From positions 1-58,901 of the forward strand of contig QCIU01000008.1 of assembly GCA_003216465.1 (NCBI GenBank): a DNA stretch of 58,901 nucleotides, read 5' to 3'. This document shows, in pieces, positions 5,723-41,223 of this stretch. This DNA comes from Prochlorococcus sp. AG-402-N10. GTDB lineage: Bacteria > Cyanobacteriota > Cyanobacteriia > PCC-6307 > Cyanobiaceae. The notes beneath the pieces were generated by a model. It did not search any database. It had not been told where the DNA came from and was given only the letters and a program-made list of their open reading frames with translations. A program made the position numbers and the translations under genes. Positions within the stretch are counted from its first letter, which is position 1. Each line of letters begins with the position of its first letter.

Positions 5723-6211
5723 TTACCAAGTACCTGCACCGCCACCAGTTCCATCGCATCCTGCTCTGGCATTTTCAGTACATGTTCTAGTAACTACGCC
5801 TGTTGTTGGGTTCATTAAGATTGAGAATGATGCATTTGCAGCAGCATCAGTAGTAGTAGCAGTAGCAGCATAACAAGTATCTCCGCCTCCGGTACTGCCA
5901 TTTTGACCAACTGTAAAACCTCTAAAGGCTGTGGCGGTTGCAAATGATTGTGCGTCTGTAAAAGTGGTAGTTGAATTGTCTGCAGCTCTTACAACGCATT
6001 CTTTAACTCCATTAACAAGCCCATTTTTTACGGCAGAGGCTCTTGCGTTAGCTTGAACACCCACAAAAGCTGGAATCGCAACTGCTGATAAAATTGCCAA
6101 AACAGCAATTACAACAACTAATTCAACGAGAGAAAATCCTTCCTCTCCTGGTTTTGTGTTTAATGCTTTTTGAACTCTTATACTTTTAAGATAATTTTCT
6201 AGGATAGACAT
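5723..6211 (-). CDS. pilA: Type IV major pilin PilA
   Basis: 162-residue prepilin. A leader of about 24 residues ends in GEEG, then the FSLVELVVVIAVLAIL helix with Glu at +5 and the AIPAF segment typical of cyanobacterial PilA. The mature domain is small, rich in Thr/Ala/Gly, and has two cysteine pairs (KECVV with DTCYA; RTCTEN with AGCDG), the usual disulfide loops. It is followed by a strong terminator. Prepilin peptidase pilD is the divergent neighbour. Confidence 0.93.
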   Translation of the reverse strand: MSILENYLKSIRVQKALNTKPGEEGFSLVELVVVIAVLAILSAVAIPAFVGVQANARASAVKNGLVNGVKECVVRAADNSTTTFTDAQSFATATAFRGFTVGQNGSTGGGDTCYAATATTTDAAANASFSILMNPTTGVVTRTCTENARAGCDGTGGGAGTW

Positions 6212-7787: not shown

Positions 7788-7890
7788 TTGATTTCTCCTA
7801 GTTCGCCTAAGTCCCCGTTCCATGACTTAAGTCGATCTGCGTCTTACATCATGCAAGTTGAACGTTTTGGTAGCGGTTGCTACAAAAAAT
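7788..7890 (-). promoter_or_regulatory. G+C-rich structured leader of the DUF4278 gene
   Basis: About 49% G+C over 7801-7880, well above the surroundings. On the minus strand it starts with a perfect GTAGC-AACC-GCTAC hairpin (7872-7885) and then has TAAGTC/GACTTA arms (7808-7813, 7824-7829) with a 10-nt loop. It also contains the 10-bp palindrome GACTTAAGTC. A TAATCT -10-like box lies just upstream on the minus strand. It reads as a folded 5' leader or small RNA; the function is not known. Confidence 0.4.
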
Positions 7891-32533: not shown

Positions 32534-32550
32534 AATAAGTTAGTATTTAT

Positions 32551-32735
32551 ATACTGGCTCTTTGGTCAAGTTCTTCTTTATGTGCTCTGATCTGACTCTT
32601 TTTCGACTTGAGGAGACTGTCGTGACGTGGACGTAAACCAATCATGCAATTGGAAACGAAAGCCCACTTTGACTCCTCTTCTGGCTTTTCCAGGTCGATG
32701 CATCAGAGAACTGGCGGGGATTCGGTGTTACCTAT
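32551..32735 (+). ncRNA. ssrS: 6S RNA
   Basis: A G+C-richer stretch immediately 3' of purK, where cyanobacterial 6S RNA is located. It begins about ATACTGGCTCTTTGG and can fold into a long rod: for example GAGGAG (about 32610-32616) faces CTCCTC (about 32672-32677), leaving an open central part as 6S requires. It has no coding frame. It ends at a strong hairpin. 6S binds RNA polymerase by mimicking an open promoter. The boundaries are approximate; the call rests on position and fold, not on an alignment. Confidence 0.7.
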
Positions 32736-32791: not shown

Positions 32792-32839
32792 TGCAGGACC
32801 AGTGTGCAGGACCAATTTGCAGTACCAAATGCAGGACCA
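32792..32839. repeat. Four-copy iteron TGCAGGACCA
   Basis: Copies start at 32792, 32805, 32818 and 32830 (spacing 13, 13, 12). Copies 1, 2 and 4 are identical; copy 3 has one change (TGCAGTACCA). Spacers are 3, 3 and 2 bases. This is non-coding sequence just behind 6S RNA. The spacing is slightly more than one helical turn per copy, so all four lie near the same face, as for a cooperative protein-binding array. Confidence 0.85.
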
Positions 32840-32928
32840 TATCAGGGATTGCTAACATAATTAAGTTTTAGCTTGAGAAACAGATCACGAAAAATAAAAA
32901 TTTTAAAAGGCGAAATGATATATACATC

Positions 32929-33059
32929 TATAATCTAATGACTTTTAGATTAGAGTTGTTTAATGCATGAGTCTTCATGATTAAACAGAAGAGAGGATGG
33001 TTAACTACTCCTTCCTCTCTGGTACCTAAGTCAATATTAAATCGCCTTAAGGGTGCTTT
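32929..33059 (+). ncRNA. Candidate small RNA made of successive hairpins
   Basis: TATAAT at 32929-32934 would start an RNA near 32941. It then holds a 12-bp hairpin with one bulge (GTTTAAT..ATTAAAC enclosing CATGA-GTCT-TCATG, 32958-32986) and an 8-bp stem AGAGAGGA/TCCTCTCT (32990-32997, 33013-33020). A weak GCC/GGG stem before TTTTTT (33042-33063) could end it. The -10 box itself sits in a third inverted repeat (TAATCTAA / TTAGATTA). No coding frame fits. Strand and boundaries are inferred. Confidence 0.45.
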
Positions 33060-33269
33060 TTTAATGTGCCAGCTTTTAACGACTTCAGGGTTTGGTCTTA
33101 TTTAATAGTTGGTATTAATAGTGTTATTAATATATGATCGCGGCTAATAATATCACTACTATCCTCATCTTTAAATTAGTGTGGTAATGCTTGATGATAT
33201 CCATTTACCCGCTCGACTTCGTCTCACTGAGGATATCAGTAAAGGTATTTATTGTTGTCTATTAATCTC

Positions 33270-33326
33270 CTCTGTACACATAAGGGTACCCTCAATTACT
33301 CTTTCTCTGTACACATATGGGTACCC
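33270..33326. repeat. Two tandem 22-bp operator-like repeats
   Basis: CTCTGTACACATAAGGGTAC(CC) at 33270-33291 and the same with one change at 33305-33326, 35 bp apart. Each contains the palindromes TGTACA and GGGTACCC and a GTA-N10-TAC spacing that resembles, but is two bases wider than, the NtcA consensus GTA-N8-TAC. The second copy ends 24 bases before a TACAAT box, the spacing typical of NtcA-activated promoters. The remaining sequence between 33064 and 33399 is non-coding with one more inverted repeat (TGATATCC/GGATATCA, 33195-33238). Confidence 0.7.
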
Positions 33327-33348
33327 CTTTTTAGAAGGAATAATCATT

Positions 33349-33354
33349 TACAAT
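33349..33354 (+). promoter_or_regulatory. -10 element of the mini-gene cluster
   Basis: TACAAT lies 24 bases after the second 22-bp repeat and about 45 bases before the first ATG of the 33400 gene cluster. No -35 hexamer is obvious, which fits an activator-dependent promoter. Confidence 0.4.
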
Positions 33355-33399
33355 TACTTAGGAGTATAGGAAAAGTTTTGATGTTTAATATTAGTGTGA

Positions 33400-33585
33400 A
33401 TGAATAATTTAATTAACCCTTTGGCACTTGGAAAGGCTTTAAAGAAGTACAATTTAACCCCTAAGAACAAACAGCAAGTGGTTTTATTGTCTAAAAGGAA
33501 AACCGCGACATGGTCAGCTATTCATAGACTTGCAAGAAAACTAGAATTTAAGCAGTCAGTAGTTGATCAACAGCAACAAGAGTAA
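33400..33585 (+). CDS. Hypothetical basic protein (61 aa)
   Basis: Basic, Gln-rich 61-residue protein starting MNNLINPLALGKALKKYN, with a central KSKRKTATW-like basic stretch (LLSKRKTATWSAIHRLARKL) and a QQQQE tail. First of three closely packed mini-genes; its TAA overlaps the next ATG (TAATG). It could be a small nucleic-acid-binding protein, but nothing specific is recognised. Confidence 0.6.
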   Translation: MNNLINPLALGKALKKYNLTPKNKQQVVLLSKRKTATWSAIHRLARKLEFKQSVVDQQQQE

Positions 33586-33737
33586 TGGCACTTTCAGACT
33601 ACAGAAAACAGCGAATAATGCTTTTAGCAAGAATGAATCTTGGTTTAGCTAGTGAAGACCAACAAGAAATTGATCTATACAATCACTATCAAAAAAATAT
33701 TTATTCAGAACAAAATCAACAACACCAACAAAAGTAA
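33585..33737 (+). CDS. Hypothetical Gln-rich protein (50 aa)
   Basis: Reads MALSDYRKQRIMLLARMNLG, then an acidic segment and a Gln-rich tail (EQNQQHQQK). It starts inside the stop of the previous gene (TAATG), implying translational coupling, and the next gene follows six bases later. The Gln-rich tails of this and the preceding protein suggest a related pair. Function unknown. Confidence 0.6.
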   Translation: MALSDYRKQRIMLLARMNLGLASEDQQEIDLYNHYQKNIYSEQNQQHQQK

Positions 33738-33743
33738 AATCTC

Positions 33744-33941
33744 ATGAATAAAGAAGAAAGAAGAAAAAGATTCAAGTCAATGACTAGCCAACAAAGGCAA
33801 GAGTTGATCCTGGAGAAAATGAAAGCTAAAGGAATAGAAGTAGGAAGTGGAGTTCCAAATAGAAAATATGATAGTGAGGAGATTTATGAGTTAATCCATA
33901 TTGCTAATTGCTTTCCAGAATTAAGAGAAAAAGGTAAATAA
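33744..33941 (+). CDS. Hypothetical charged protein (65 aa)
   Basis: Starts MNKEERRKRFKSMTSQQRQE and continues with a KAKGIEVGSGVPNRKYDSEE stretch and an acidic helical C-terminus. Last of the three-gene run at 33400-33941. No membrane segment and no known domain. Confidence 0.6.
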   Translation: MNKEERRKRFKSMTSQQRQELILEKMKAKGIEVGSGVPNRKYDSEEIYELIHIANCFPELREKGK

Positions 33942-34008: not shown

Positions 34009-34308
34009 ATGACTCTAGGAGGAGCAAATGTTTGGACTAATTTTTCTTACGGTTATCGTAATGAGTCCCCAAGTGGTTGGTTACTTAACCCTGAACGCAG
34101 CAGACTAATTTTATTTACAAGAAATAAAAAGTCAGCAAGAAACAATATCAGGATTTTTGCTTATTTATATTATGCAAATGATCTTGGTGAACCATCTACA
34201 ATTAAATCTGCAAGTCAGATGCCGTTGGATGATGCCTGGGATAAATGGCATGATCTCCAATTAGAAGGTTGGACTTTTGAAGAGCTTGAATTACCTGAAT
34301 CAATATGA
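34009..34308 (+). CDS. DUF1651 family protein (99 aa)
   Basis: Contains the DUF1651 pattern of marine picocyanobacteria: SPSGWLLNPERSRLILF at the front, then MPLDDAWDKWHDLQLEGW at the back. Soluble, aromatic-rich. DUF1651 genes are numerous and often in variable regions of Prochlorococcus and Synechococcus; the function is unknown. Its TGA overlaps the next ATG (ATGA). Confidence 0.75.
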   Translation: MTLGGANVWTNFSYGYRNESPSGWLLNPERSRLILFTRNKKSARNNIRIFAYLYYANDLGEPSTIKSASQMPLDDAWDKWHDLQLEGWTFEELELPESI

Positions 34309-40709: not shown

Positions 40710-40836
40710 GAAAATTTAAATTCTACAAAAATCGAACTCTGATGCTATCGTTCCAAAAATAAATCCGCGTGACATTTTTTACAAAAAATACTTATATTTT
40801 ATTTCGCACATAGAAAATTGAATTTAATCTACAAGC

Positions 40837-40876
40837 TGTGGAAAAACCTGTTGAAAAAGCGTTAAAAAGTGGATAA
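40837..40876. promoter_or_regulatory. Cluster of three DnaA-box-like 9-mers
   Basis: TGTGGAAAA (40837-40845, reverse of TTTTCCACA), TGTTGAAAA (40849-40857, one change) and AGTGGATAA (40868-40876, one change from TGTGGATAA) lie in the same orientation within 40 bp. The surrounding gene-free stretch 40710-41223 (514 bases) is otherwise AT-rich with no convincing gene. Tiny frames such as MVQTRFFGLFSKY at 40890 are present but weak. Confidence 0.45.
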
Positions 40877-41223
40877 CTCGTCGGGATCATGGTTCAAACT
40901 AGGTTTTTTGGCTTATTTTCTAAGTATTAATACTTCATCAATAAATGGTTAAATATAGTTTAATAATCAATAAAACGTACTGAAATAACAATGGGATCGT
41001 TACTTTTCTATAAAAAAAATATTTATTTAAACCAAACAATTTGGTGTGAATTAAAAATATTTATTAATTCGGAACATGTTTCAAAATAAAAAATTTTAGT
41101 AATAAAAAATTTTACAAATTTAATTTATATGAAAAATTTTTTTTAATTTTTAAGAAAATAAAAAGATTAATTCGGTTTTCTCTCTGGTTTATTTTTTCAT
41201 TTAGAAAATCAATCGAATAGATT

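Follow-up and report, generated by a model that had tools for sequence, protein, structure and literature searches.

Lambda-type integrases bind arm-type sites with an N-terminal domain and act at a core site with a catalytic domain. In Prochlorococcus, the mobile elements to be compared with the locus described here are the tycheposons, whose original study is reportedly Hackl 2023. According to an excerpt of PMC10872708, tycheposons are bordered by one of seven tRNA genes. The attP of mycobacteriophage Pixie is predicted, in the excerpted text of PMC3203893, to consist of a pair of repeats on one side and of three direct repeats plus one inverted repeat on the other side. The same excerpt indicates that in Cluster K1 phages the arm repeat changes along with N-terminal residues of the integrase. 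For intS of KplE1, negative autoregulation is documented, and the att region overlaps the integrase promoter (PMC2951348, in part).

The DNA analyzed here, hereafter the window, is the whole of a stretch of 58,901 bases from Prochlorococcus sp. AG-402-N10. An array of four 10-bp repeats lies behind the 6S RNA gene (ssrS) of the window. Judged from related loci, this array very probably belongs to an integrative element with the 6S RNA gene as its insertion site, and forms the proximal left arm of the element's attachment site. The best reading of the repeats is as putative arm-type sites for an integrase that is lambda-like and directed at 6S.

The layout of Pixie attP matches best among those described (PMC3203893, in part), in that short direct repeats flank a core beside int. 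Unlike Pixie, however, the core here belongs to the 6S RNA gene, the repeats are 10-mers with a 13-bp period that number up to four to six per arm, and those of the right arm overlap or adjoin the start of int. The repeat sequence here also varies widely between relatives at constant geometry. The islands at ssrS resemble tycheposons in containing a tyrosine recombinase gene and variable cargo, which in two islands includes a phosphonate-type ABC transporter. In contrast to tycheposons as these are described, they are bordered by the 6S RNA gene. Because tycheposons are described as tRNA-bordered, we do not class the ssrS islands among them. The arrangement of putative integrase sites over the int start region is like that of intS of KplE1 and is suggestive of autoregulation, although intS has a tRNA target, other sites and an Escherichia coli host (PMC2951348, in part).

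In the open-licence PMC literature, we found no paper on 6S or ssrS as an integration site in these bacteria, which is a weak absence, and none on a 6S-targeting family with re-coded arms. PMC2518516 names 6S RNA as Yfr7, and its excerpt contains no integrase. PMC3339403 came up as a possible report of an ssrS hotspot and was rejected, as its excerpt concerns SSR and not ssrS. The class of mechanism is known; the target is new, and the series of re-coded arms is unusually clear.

The array and its surroundings

The repeats found in Prochlorococcus are of three types, namely A (TGCAGGACCA), B (TGCCTTACCA) and C (TGTCCTACCA, in the genomes G096 and G114). The window has a type-A array (Table 1), whose copies follow each other at 13, 13 and 12 bp and which begins on the same strand as the Rfam 6S match, 60 bases past its end. 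The four copies, their positions and their spacing had been given correctly to the base in a preliminary description of this DNA, as had their location behind 6S RNA. The array is the sole run of at least four like-spaced, near-identical 10-mers within the 58,901 bases, and none of 40 first-order Markov controls yielded such a run with at least three different letters per unit. With up to one mismatch allowed, the window contains six matches on its two strands, compared with a mean of 1.29 in shuffled sequences, none of which (0/100) reached six. All open reading frames (ORFs) that cross the array are of 51 amino acids or fewer, in a listing from 25 amino acids up.

Table 1. Features of the ssrS locus in the window (offsets are from the start of the core)
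Feature	Coordinates	Strand	Comment
6S RNA gene (ssrS), attachment gene	32548..32732	+	Rfam RF00013, 87.2 bits, model 1-187/187
Putative att core, 3' half of 6S	32691..32735	+	Starts CAGGTCGATGCATCAGAGAACTGG; in relatives, islands have a second copy of it at their far end
Arm-type site 1 (predicted)	32792..32801	+	TGCAGGACCA; offset +101
Arm-type site 2 (predicted)	32805..32814	+	TGCAGGACCA; offset +114
Arm-type site 3 (predicted)	32818..32827	+	TGCAGTACCA; offset +127; one change, G6 to T
Arm-type site 4 (predicted)	32830..32839	+	TGCAGGACCA; offset +139
Relic cargo, remaining island DNA	32840..33941	+	Small ORFs 33400-33585, 33585-33737, 33744-33941
ACAGATC motif	32880..32886	+	Conserved in most arrays of types A and B and in G096 (type C), ~40-55 bp inside the array
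Fifth-repeat position	32964..32973	+	Window reads TGCATGAGTC; offset +273; forward repeat at +274 to +276 in relatives
Sixth-repeat position	33020..33029	-	Window reads TGGTACCTAA; offset +329; reverse repeat at +333 to +335 in relatives
Conserved host flank, first gene	34009..34308	+	ORF of 99 aa; directly after 6S in uninterrupted relatives

The ACAGATC motif recurs at about +189 or +201 from the core in the left ends of relatives, G394 included, and is a candidate site for a second protein, for example an excision factor or a DNA-bending protein. The distal two repeats of the window, when compared by eye, apparently have decayed, although the signs of this are slight.

The att core is present in a single copy in the window, where a search for a second core found none. 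A search of the window's own genome found no match to the integrase, and within the window there is no credible integrase: the best match (E 0.003) covers 48 residues at 5900-6043, far from ssrS, and a 10-residue match across the array (E about 8) is the repeat itself. The cargo amounts to ~1.1 kb, and its three small ORFs are without a PHROG match. Positions 33512-33941 are 91% identical to DNA behind a B-type array beside the 6S core of another genome (G121, locus L230). The window copy is a relic that has kept the left arm, the 6S junction and a small cargo, and from which the integrase and the right junction are gone. We infer the probable role of its array from relatives.

Several further features were observed in the window. 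The non-coding segment 33096-33290, which contains TGATATCC...GGATATCA, is similar to sequence within or beside other islands and remnants of integrases; pieces of it are 71-90% identical to sequences in G149, G026, G067, G258, G096, G158 and others. This segment is possibly a structured RNA or a regulatory region. The near-identical 20-mers CTGTACACATAAGGGTACCC (33272-33291) and CTGTACACATATGGGTACCC (33307-33326) lie 35 bp apart. A Yfr17 RNA is found at 40729-40993 on the forward strand (Rfam, 257.8 bits), and a glutamine-II riboswitch at 7806-7867 on the reverse strand (Rfam, 59.3 bits).

Islands at ssrS

In genomes without the array, the conserved flank that in the window starts at about 33945, with its gene at 34009, commonly comes directly after 6S. 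Array-bearing genomes have extra DNA between 6S and this flank. Model RF00013 matched 208 of 266 genomes of the genus; 150 places were listed, of which 146 were analyzed (G016, G028, G081 and G286 were excluded), and seven loci that carry arrays, the window among them, were added to give a total of 153. An array was defined for this survey as at least two repeats of type A or B, 11-14 bp apart and with no more than one mismatch, with type C excluded. The flank lies no more than 330 bp from the core (171-292 bp) in 100 of the 146 loci, and just one of these 100 (G143) has an array, which is degenerate. Among the other 46, an array is present in 27, and 19 have no A- or B-type array; the sequence is cut before a flank in 15 of these 46 (11 with an array and 4 without). 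In eight of the 53 non-empty loci, the flank is just 344-482 bp away, so that these may hold little or no island. Many of the genomes compared are incomplete.

The islands of relatives run in the order 6S, array, cargo, tyrosine integrase gene and a duplicated 3' piece of 6S. The second copy of the 6S core is located at a distance of 15.3 kb in G026, 9.9 kb in G067, 7.7 kb in G149, 8.0 kb in G258 and 2.9 kb in G084, and second copies also occur in G156 (4.7 kb) and G243 (0.3 kb). The far-end core can be read in nine of ten lineages, where 32-40 of 40 bases are identical to the lineage's own 6S; in the tenth (G394), it is off the contig. By eye, the 3' half of 6S on the array side differs from the type seen in uninterrupted genomes, and the far copies of, for example, G067 and G034 have the uninterrupted-type 3' half joined to the flank. 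Both are as expected if the element brings its own 3' end. In G149, G160 and G114, other sequence follows the far 6S copy, and in G114 this includes a further array.

These observations are suggestive of a mechanism in which the tyrosine integrase of the element would use its catalytic domain for DNA cutting and joining at the core in the 3' half of ssrS. The N-terminal domain would hold the 10-bp repeats that flank the core, as in lambda-type integrases, with two to six arm sites beside 6S and one to five by the int start codon. The RNA gene would stay whole because the incoming element would supply a 6S 3' end of its own, and the displaced original end of 6S would mark the far junction. From these comparisons, we infer binding of the repeats by the integrase and mobility of the element, and the binding may in addition repress int.

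The integrase is the only gene family present in all 12 elements compared, the runner-up being found in 3 of 12; these elements were picked via int, which biases the count, and two of them reach the end of a contig or stretch. The cargo is otherwise varied. A phosphonate-type ABC transporter cassette occurs in the ssrS islands of G026 (L172) and G067 (L171), where the binding protein of G026 has a Pfam match of 1.7e-60 and the ATPase and two permeases were named by eye. G542, from another genus, has a gene for a single-subunit (T7-like) RNA polymerase (L406, 6787-9237, reverse strand; Pfam RNA_pol, E 4.4e-41), with a relative in the island of G438 (L407), which represents another genus. Further cargo includes a TPR-sulfotransferase protein (G308) and a PrsW-type protease (G394). 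No tRNA was detected at the 6S-site loci that were scanned.

B-type arrays are also found behind a gene other than 6S, which encodes a small membrane protein (ending ...GWWTPADSL), at L354 (G180), L355 (G115) and L356 (G116). All three genomes have a tRNA-Gln on the inward side of the array, 2.4-6.0 kb from it. The membrane-protein gene could be a second attachment site with the same arm code, with tRNA-Gln as the other border. The presence of B-type arrays behind this protein gene means that the arm code is not tied to 6S.

Two loci contain more than one set of ends. In G114, a type-A right end and its core are followed by a type-C left array at +100. In G428, a right end with GGTCCTACCA is followed by a left array with TGCAGAACCA at 101, 114, 127 and 139. 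The best reading of both arrangements is that two elements probably lie in a row at one site.

Putative arm repeats and their geometry

The pattern TGCAGKACCAN{1,4}TGCAGKACCA, which represents two type-A repeats, is present in 19 of the 266 genomes of the genus, in some of them at the far end of the island only. The preliminary description had proposed to look for such arrays near ssrS in other Prochlorococcus, and the array proves to be conserved there. The corresponding B-type pattern occurs in 14 of the 266 genomes, in three of these behind a protein gene. Among named genomes, the A-type pattern matches 89 stretches, of which 19 are from Prochlorococcus (MIT 9314 and AG-388-F11 are examples) and 70 are from other bacteria. 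Nearly all of the 70 span 21-22 bases, with three of 23-24, whereas the Prochlorococcus pairs mostly span 23. Because of this shorter spacer, the 70 stretches are taken as probable chance matches. Twelve stretches in viral contigs fit the two-repeat pattern, all with a span of 22 bases, that is, with a two-base spacer.

Conservation was measured in 12 distinct four-copy TGCAGGACCA arrays from 13 genomes, including the window, chosen for a start at +101. Pairwise identity is 98.4% in the repeat columns compared with 57% in the spacer columns. Outside the array, it is 81% in 36 upstream columns and 69% in 40 downstream columns. The phased array resembling a set of protein sites that had been described from the window is real. 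The changed third copy, TGCAGTACCA, is found in 10 of the 12 arrays, and G394 and G428 likewise have an altered third copy, on other repeat sequences.

The distance from the core is nearly fixed. The first repeat starts at +101 in 21 of 35 arrays, at +100 in 10, and at +98 and +99 in one each, so that 33 of the 35 lie 98-101 bp from the core. In the two outliers (+127 and +139), the earlier copies are degenerate. Copy number, which along with spacing had been singled out for comparison in the preliminary description, is more variable, with 2 to 6 copies in the left arrays of relatives. Left arms at +101, +114, +127 and +139 are shared by the full A-type arrays, G372, G394 and G428, which represent three genera, and the B and C left arms are at +100, +113, +126 and +139. 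The left arm begins at about +80 in G542, G438 and G378, and at +64 in G310. The core-proximal repeat of the right arm begins at -73 in types A and B and at -69 to -74 in nine other lineages, a register that depends on how the repeat unit is drawn. There are one (G233, G308), two, three (G438, G378) or five (G162) right-arm copies.

Additional repeats are observed farther from the core. Many A and B elements, for example those of G026, G084, G114, G149, G160 and G187, have a distal forward repeat at +274 to +276, and several A and B relatives have an inverted one at +333 to +335. A stretch reading GGCTTTTCC...GAAAAAG, which could fold, precedes the distal forward repeat.

Other genera use other repeats, which are GTCCCAACCA in G394, GGTCCTACCA in G372 and G308, GGTTCCAAC in G542, GGTACCCACA in G438, TGTCAGAnCC in G310 and TGACTGAC in G378. 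The repeats at the two ends of an element nevertheless match each other. In the ten lineages with both arms readable, the match of a left arm to its own right arm, scored over 11-mers, is unbeaten by any cross-pairing in 10 of 10, a row-maximum count that covers rows only, and none of 20,000 permutations reached the observed sum. The match to the own arm is 11 of 11 bases in nine lineages and 10 of 11 in G477, a weak case in which the repeats at the two ends look different by eye. G394, whose right core is past the end of the contig, was scored on arm sequence alone. The B type, G372 and G308 match one another as well as themselves on this score, and thus the ten lineages are not ten independent codes. 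No array was found in the near ends of G386, G450 and G494. These genomes are no test of the pairing, because the integrase match is far from ssrS in G386 and on other contigs in G450 and G494.

Comparison of the relatives thereby establishes a duplicated core, a fixed geometry and matched end repeats, with the integrase as the sole gene common to the compared elements.

The integrase and competing explanations

The gene at the far end of the islands encodes a tyrosine recombinase of 432 amino acids (Pfam Phage_integrase 3.4e-7, SAM-like 4.7e-7; PHROG integrase 2e-37). Matches to it are found in 15 of the 266 genus genomes, several of them fragments or with stops, and in 20 of 400 genomes of the family, in 9 of 59 genera including its own. 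The int gene of the G067 island seems to be truncated. In viral contigs, a search with the integrase alignment gave 63 pattern stretches and no relatives. The expected catalytic residues are widely retained among 18 aligned integrases (R270 in 18, K317 in 18, H377 in 17, R380 in 18, H403 in 17 and Y415 in 16). All six (R, K, H, R, H, Y) are kept in each of the six full-length Prochlorococcus integrases aligned, and the exceptions are confined to distant members of the alignment. The relatives thus have a recombinase with catalytic residues, a duplicated core, and arm repeats on both sides at a fixed distance, as is characteristic of the lambda class.

A structure model built from seven sequences had a pLDDT of 44, and one built from 18 sequences (pLDDT 85.3) was used. 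Its predicted N-terminal domain (residues 12-70) is arranged as strand-strand-helix-strand-helix, with a block pLDDT of 74-85. DUF6538 matches 10 of the 18 integrases at E up to 1 (best 2e-6), and the A-type integrase is unmatched. The best matches of the model among solved structures are Tn1549 Int (E 1.5e-9) and lambda Int (8.2e-7). Since the Tn1549 chains comprise amino acids 82-397, that match says nothing on the N-terminal domain. Compared with Int of Tn1549 (Tn916-type), identity is 18-19%, and the target here is an RNA gene.

If the repeats were re-coded along with their reader, the putative arm-binding domain might be expected to diverge. Its identity to type A, compared with that of the catalytic domain, is 54% versus 81% in G150, 44% versus 65% in G428 and 44% versus 64% in G394. 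The values are 63% versus 66% in B-type G233, 58% versus 60% in G372 and 47% versus 35% in G438. The domain comparison thus appears to support a change of recognition in the putative arm-binding domain only partly.

The far repeats are on the strand opposite to int, whose start overlaps or adjoins them; in some lineages, they are just upstream of the first likely start. In G026, the start of int reads ATGTTGGTCCTGCATAATGGTCCTGCA, and the repeats are the reverse of the first codons. With the far-end repeat placed at the start of int, a fixed distance away from the duplicated piece of 6S, the layout is that of arm-type sites. The preliminary description had favored a role in replication, partition or repression, which is not the best reading of a repeat that also occurs at the far end. 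Repression of int may accompany the role of the repeats as arm sites.

It is possible that the repeats are instead operators by which the integrase or another regulator of the element represses int, and that recombination is independent of them. The position of the right-end repeats at the int start would fit this explanation, as would the precedent of intS of KplE1. However, it leaves unexplained the four repeats at the opposite end, which lie as much as 15 kb away from int and whose distance to the 6S core is fixed. Operators as the whole explanation are therefore unlikely, and an operator function is compatible with arm sites rather than exclusive of them.

Alternatively, the repeats might be iterons at which a replication protein acts on the excised circle. 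Multiple short direct repeats are typical of such a site, and joining of the circle would presumably bring both sets together. This explanation is very improbable: the repeats keep phase with the recombination core on either side of it, the two ends of an element change repeat type together, and no common Rep candidate was found, the integrase being the sole family in 12 of 12 elements (which were int-selected, and in which an element-specific Rep is possible).

A role at the RNA level, by lengthening 6S at its 3' end or as a small-RNA decoy, is suggested by an array that starts 60 bases past the 6S match on the same strand, but it is scarcely credible given that the same repeats are at the int start on the opposite strand to int, that arrays also lie behind a protein gene, and that an array is present in just 1 of 100 uninterrupted ssrS loci. 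The chance microsatellite that the preliminary description named as the alternative in case the array were absent from relatives or unphased, would account for copy numbers of 2 to 6 and has a negligible likelihood in view of repeats far better conserved than their spacers, a near-fixed offset from the core and a matching second set at the far end. Iterons, an RNA-level role and a microsatellite or slippage product were all rejected on these grounds.

Read as arm-type sites, the otherwise puzzling repeats become one end of a system of mobile elements, and this reading points to ssrS as a hotspot of integration in photosynthetic cells that are among the most abundant. The repeats also provide a simple probe for relic and intact elements. 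With a phosphonate-type ABC transporter in two of them, the islands are a candidate path by which genes are exchanged in the ocean. Moreover, the natural series of arms, in which the geometry is near-constant and the integrases match, allows arm-site recognition and the way it drifts to be tested directly.

We suggest tentatively, at somewhat less than an even chance, that these islands belong to a family-wide class of 6S-targeting elements in marine picocyanobacteria, in which core and geometry are kept and arms and their reader have repeatedly been re-coded. In such a class, TGCAGGACCA, TGCCTTACCA, TGTCCTACCA, GTCCCAACCA, GGTACCCACA and others might represent orthogonal types, a proposal that is equally tentative. 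If true, several elements of orthogonal type could accumulate at a single ssrS with no mutual excision, and the abutting arms of different sequence in G114 and G428 would be examples of this. 6S RNA is elsewhere a global regulator of RNA polymerase, and, if the proposal is true, each insertion would give this RNA a new 3' end.
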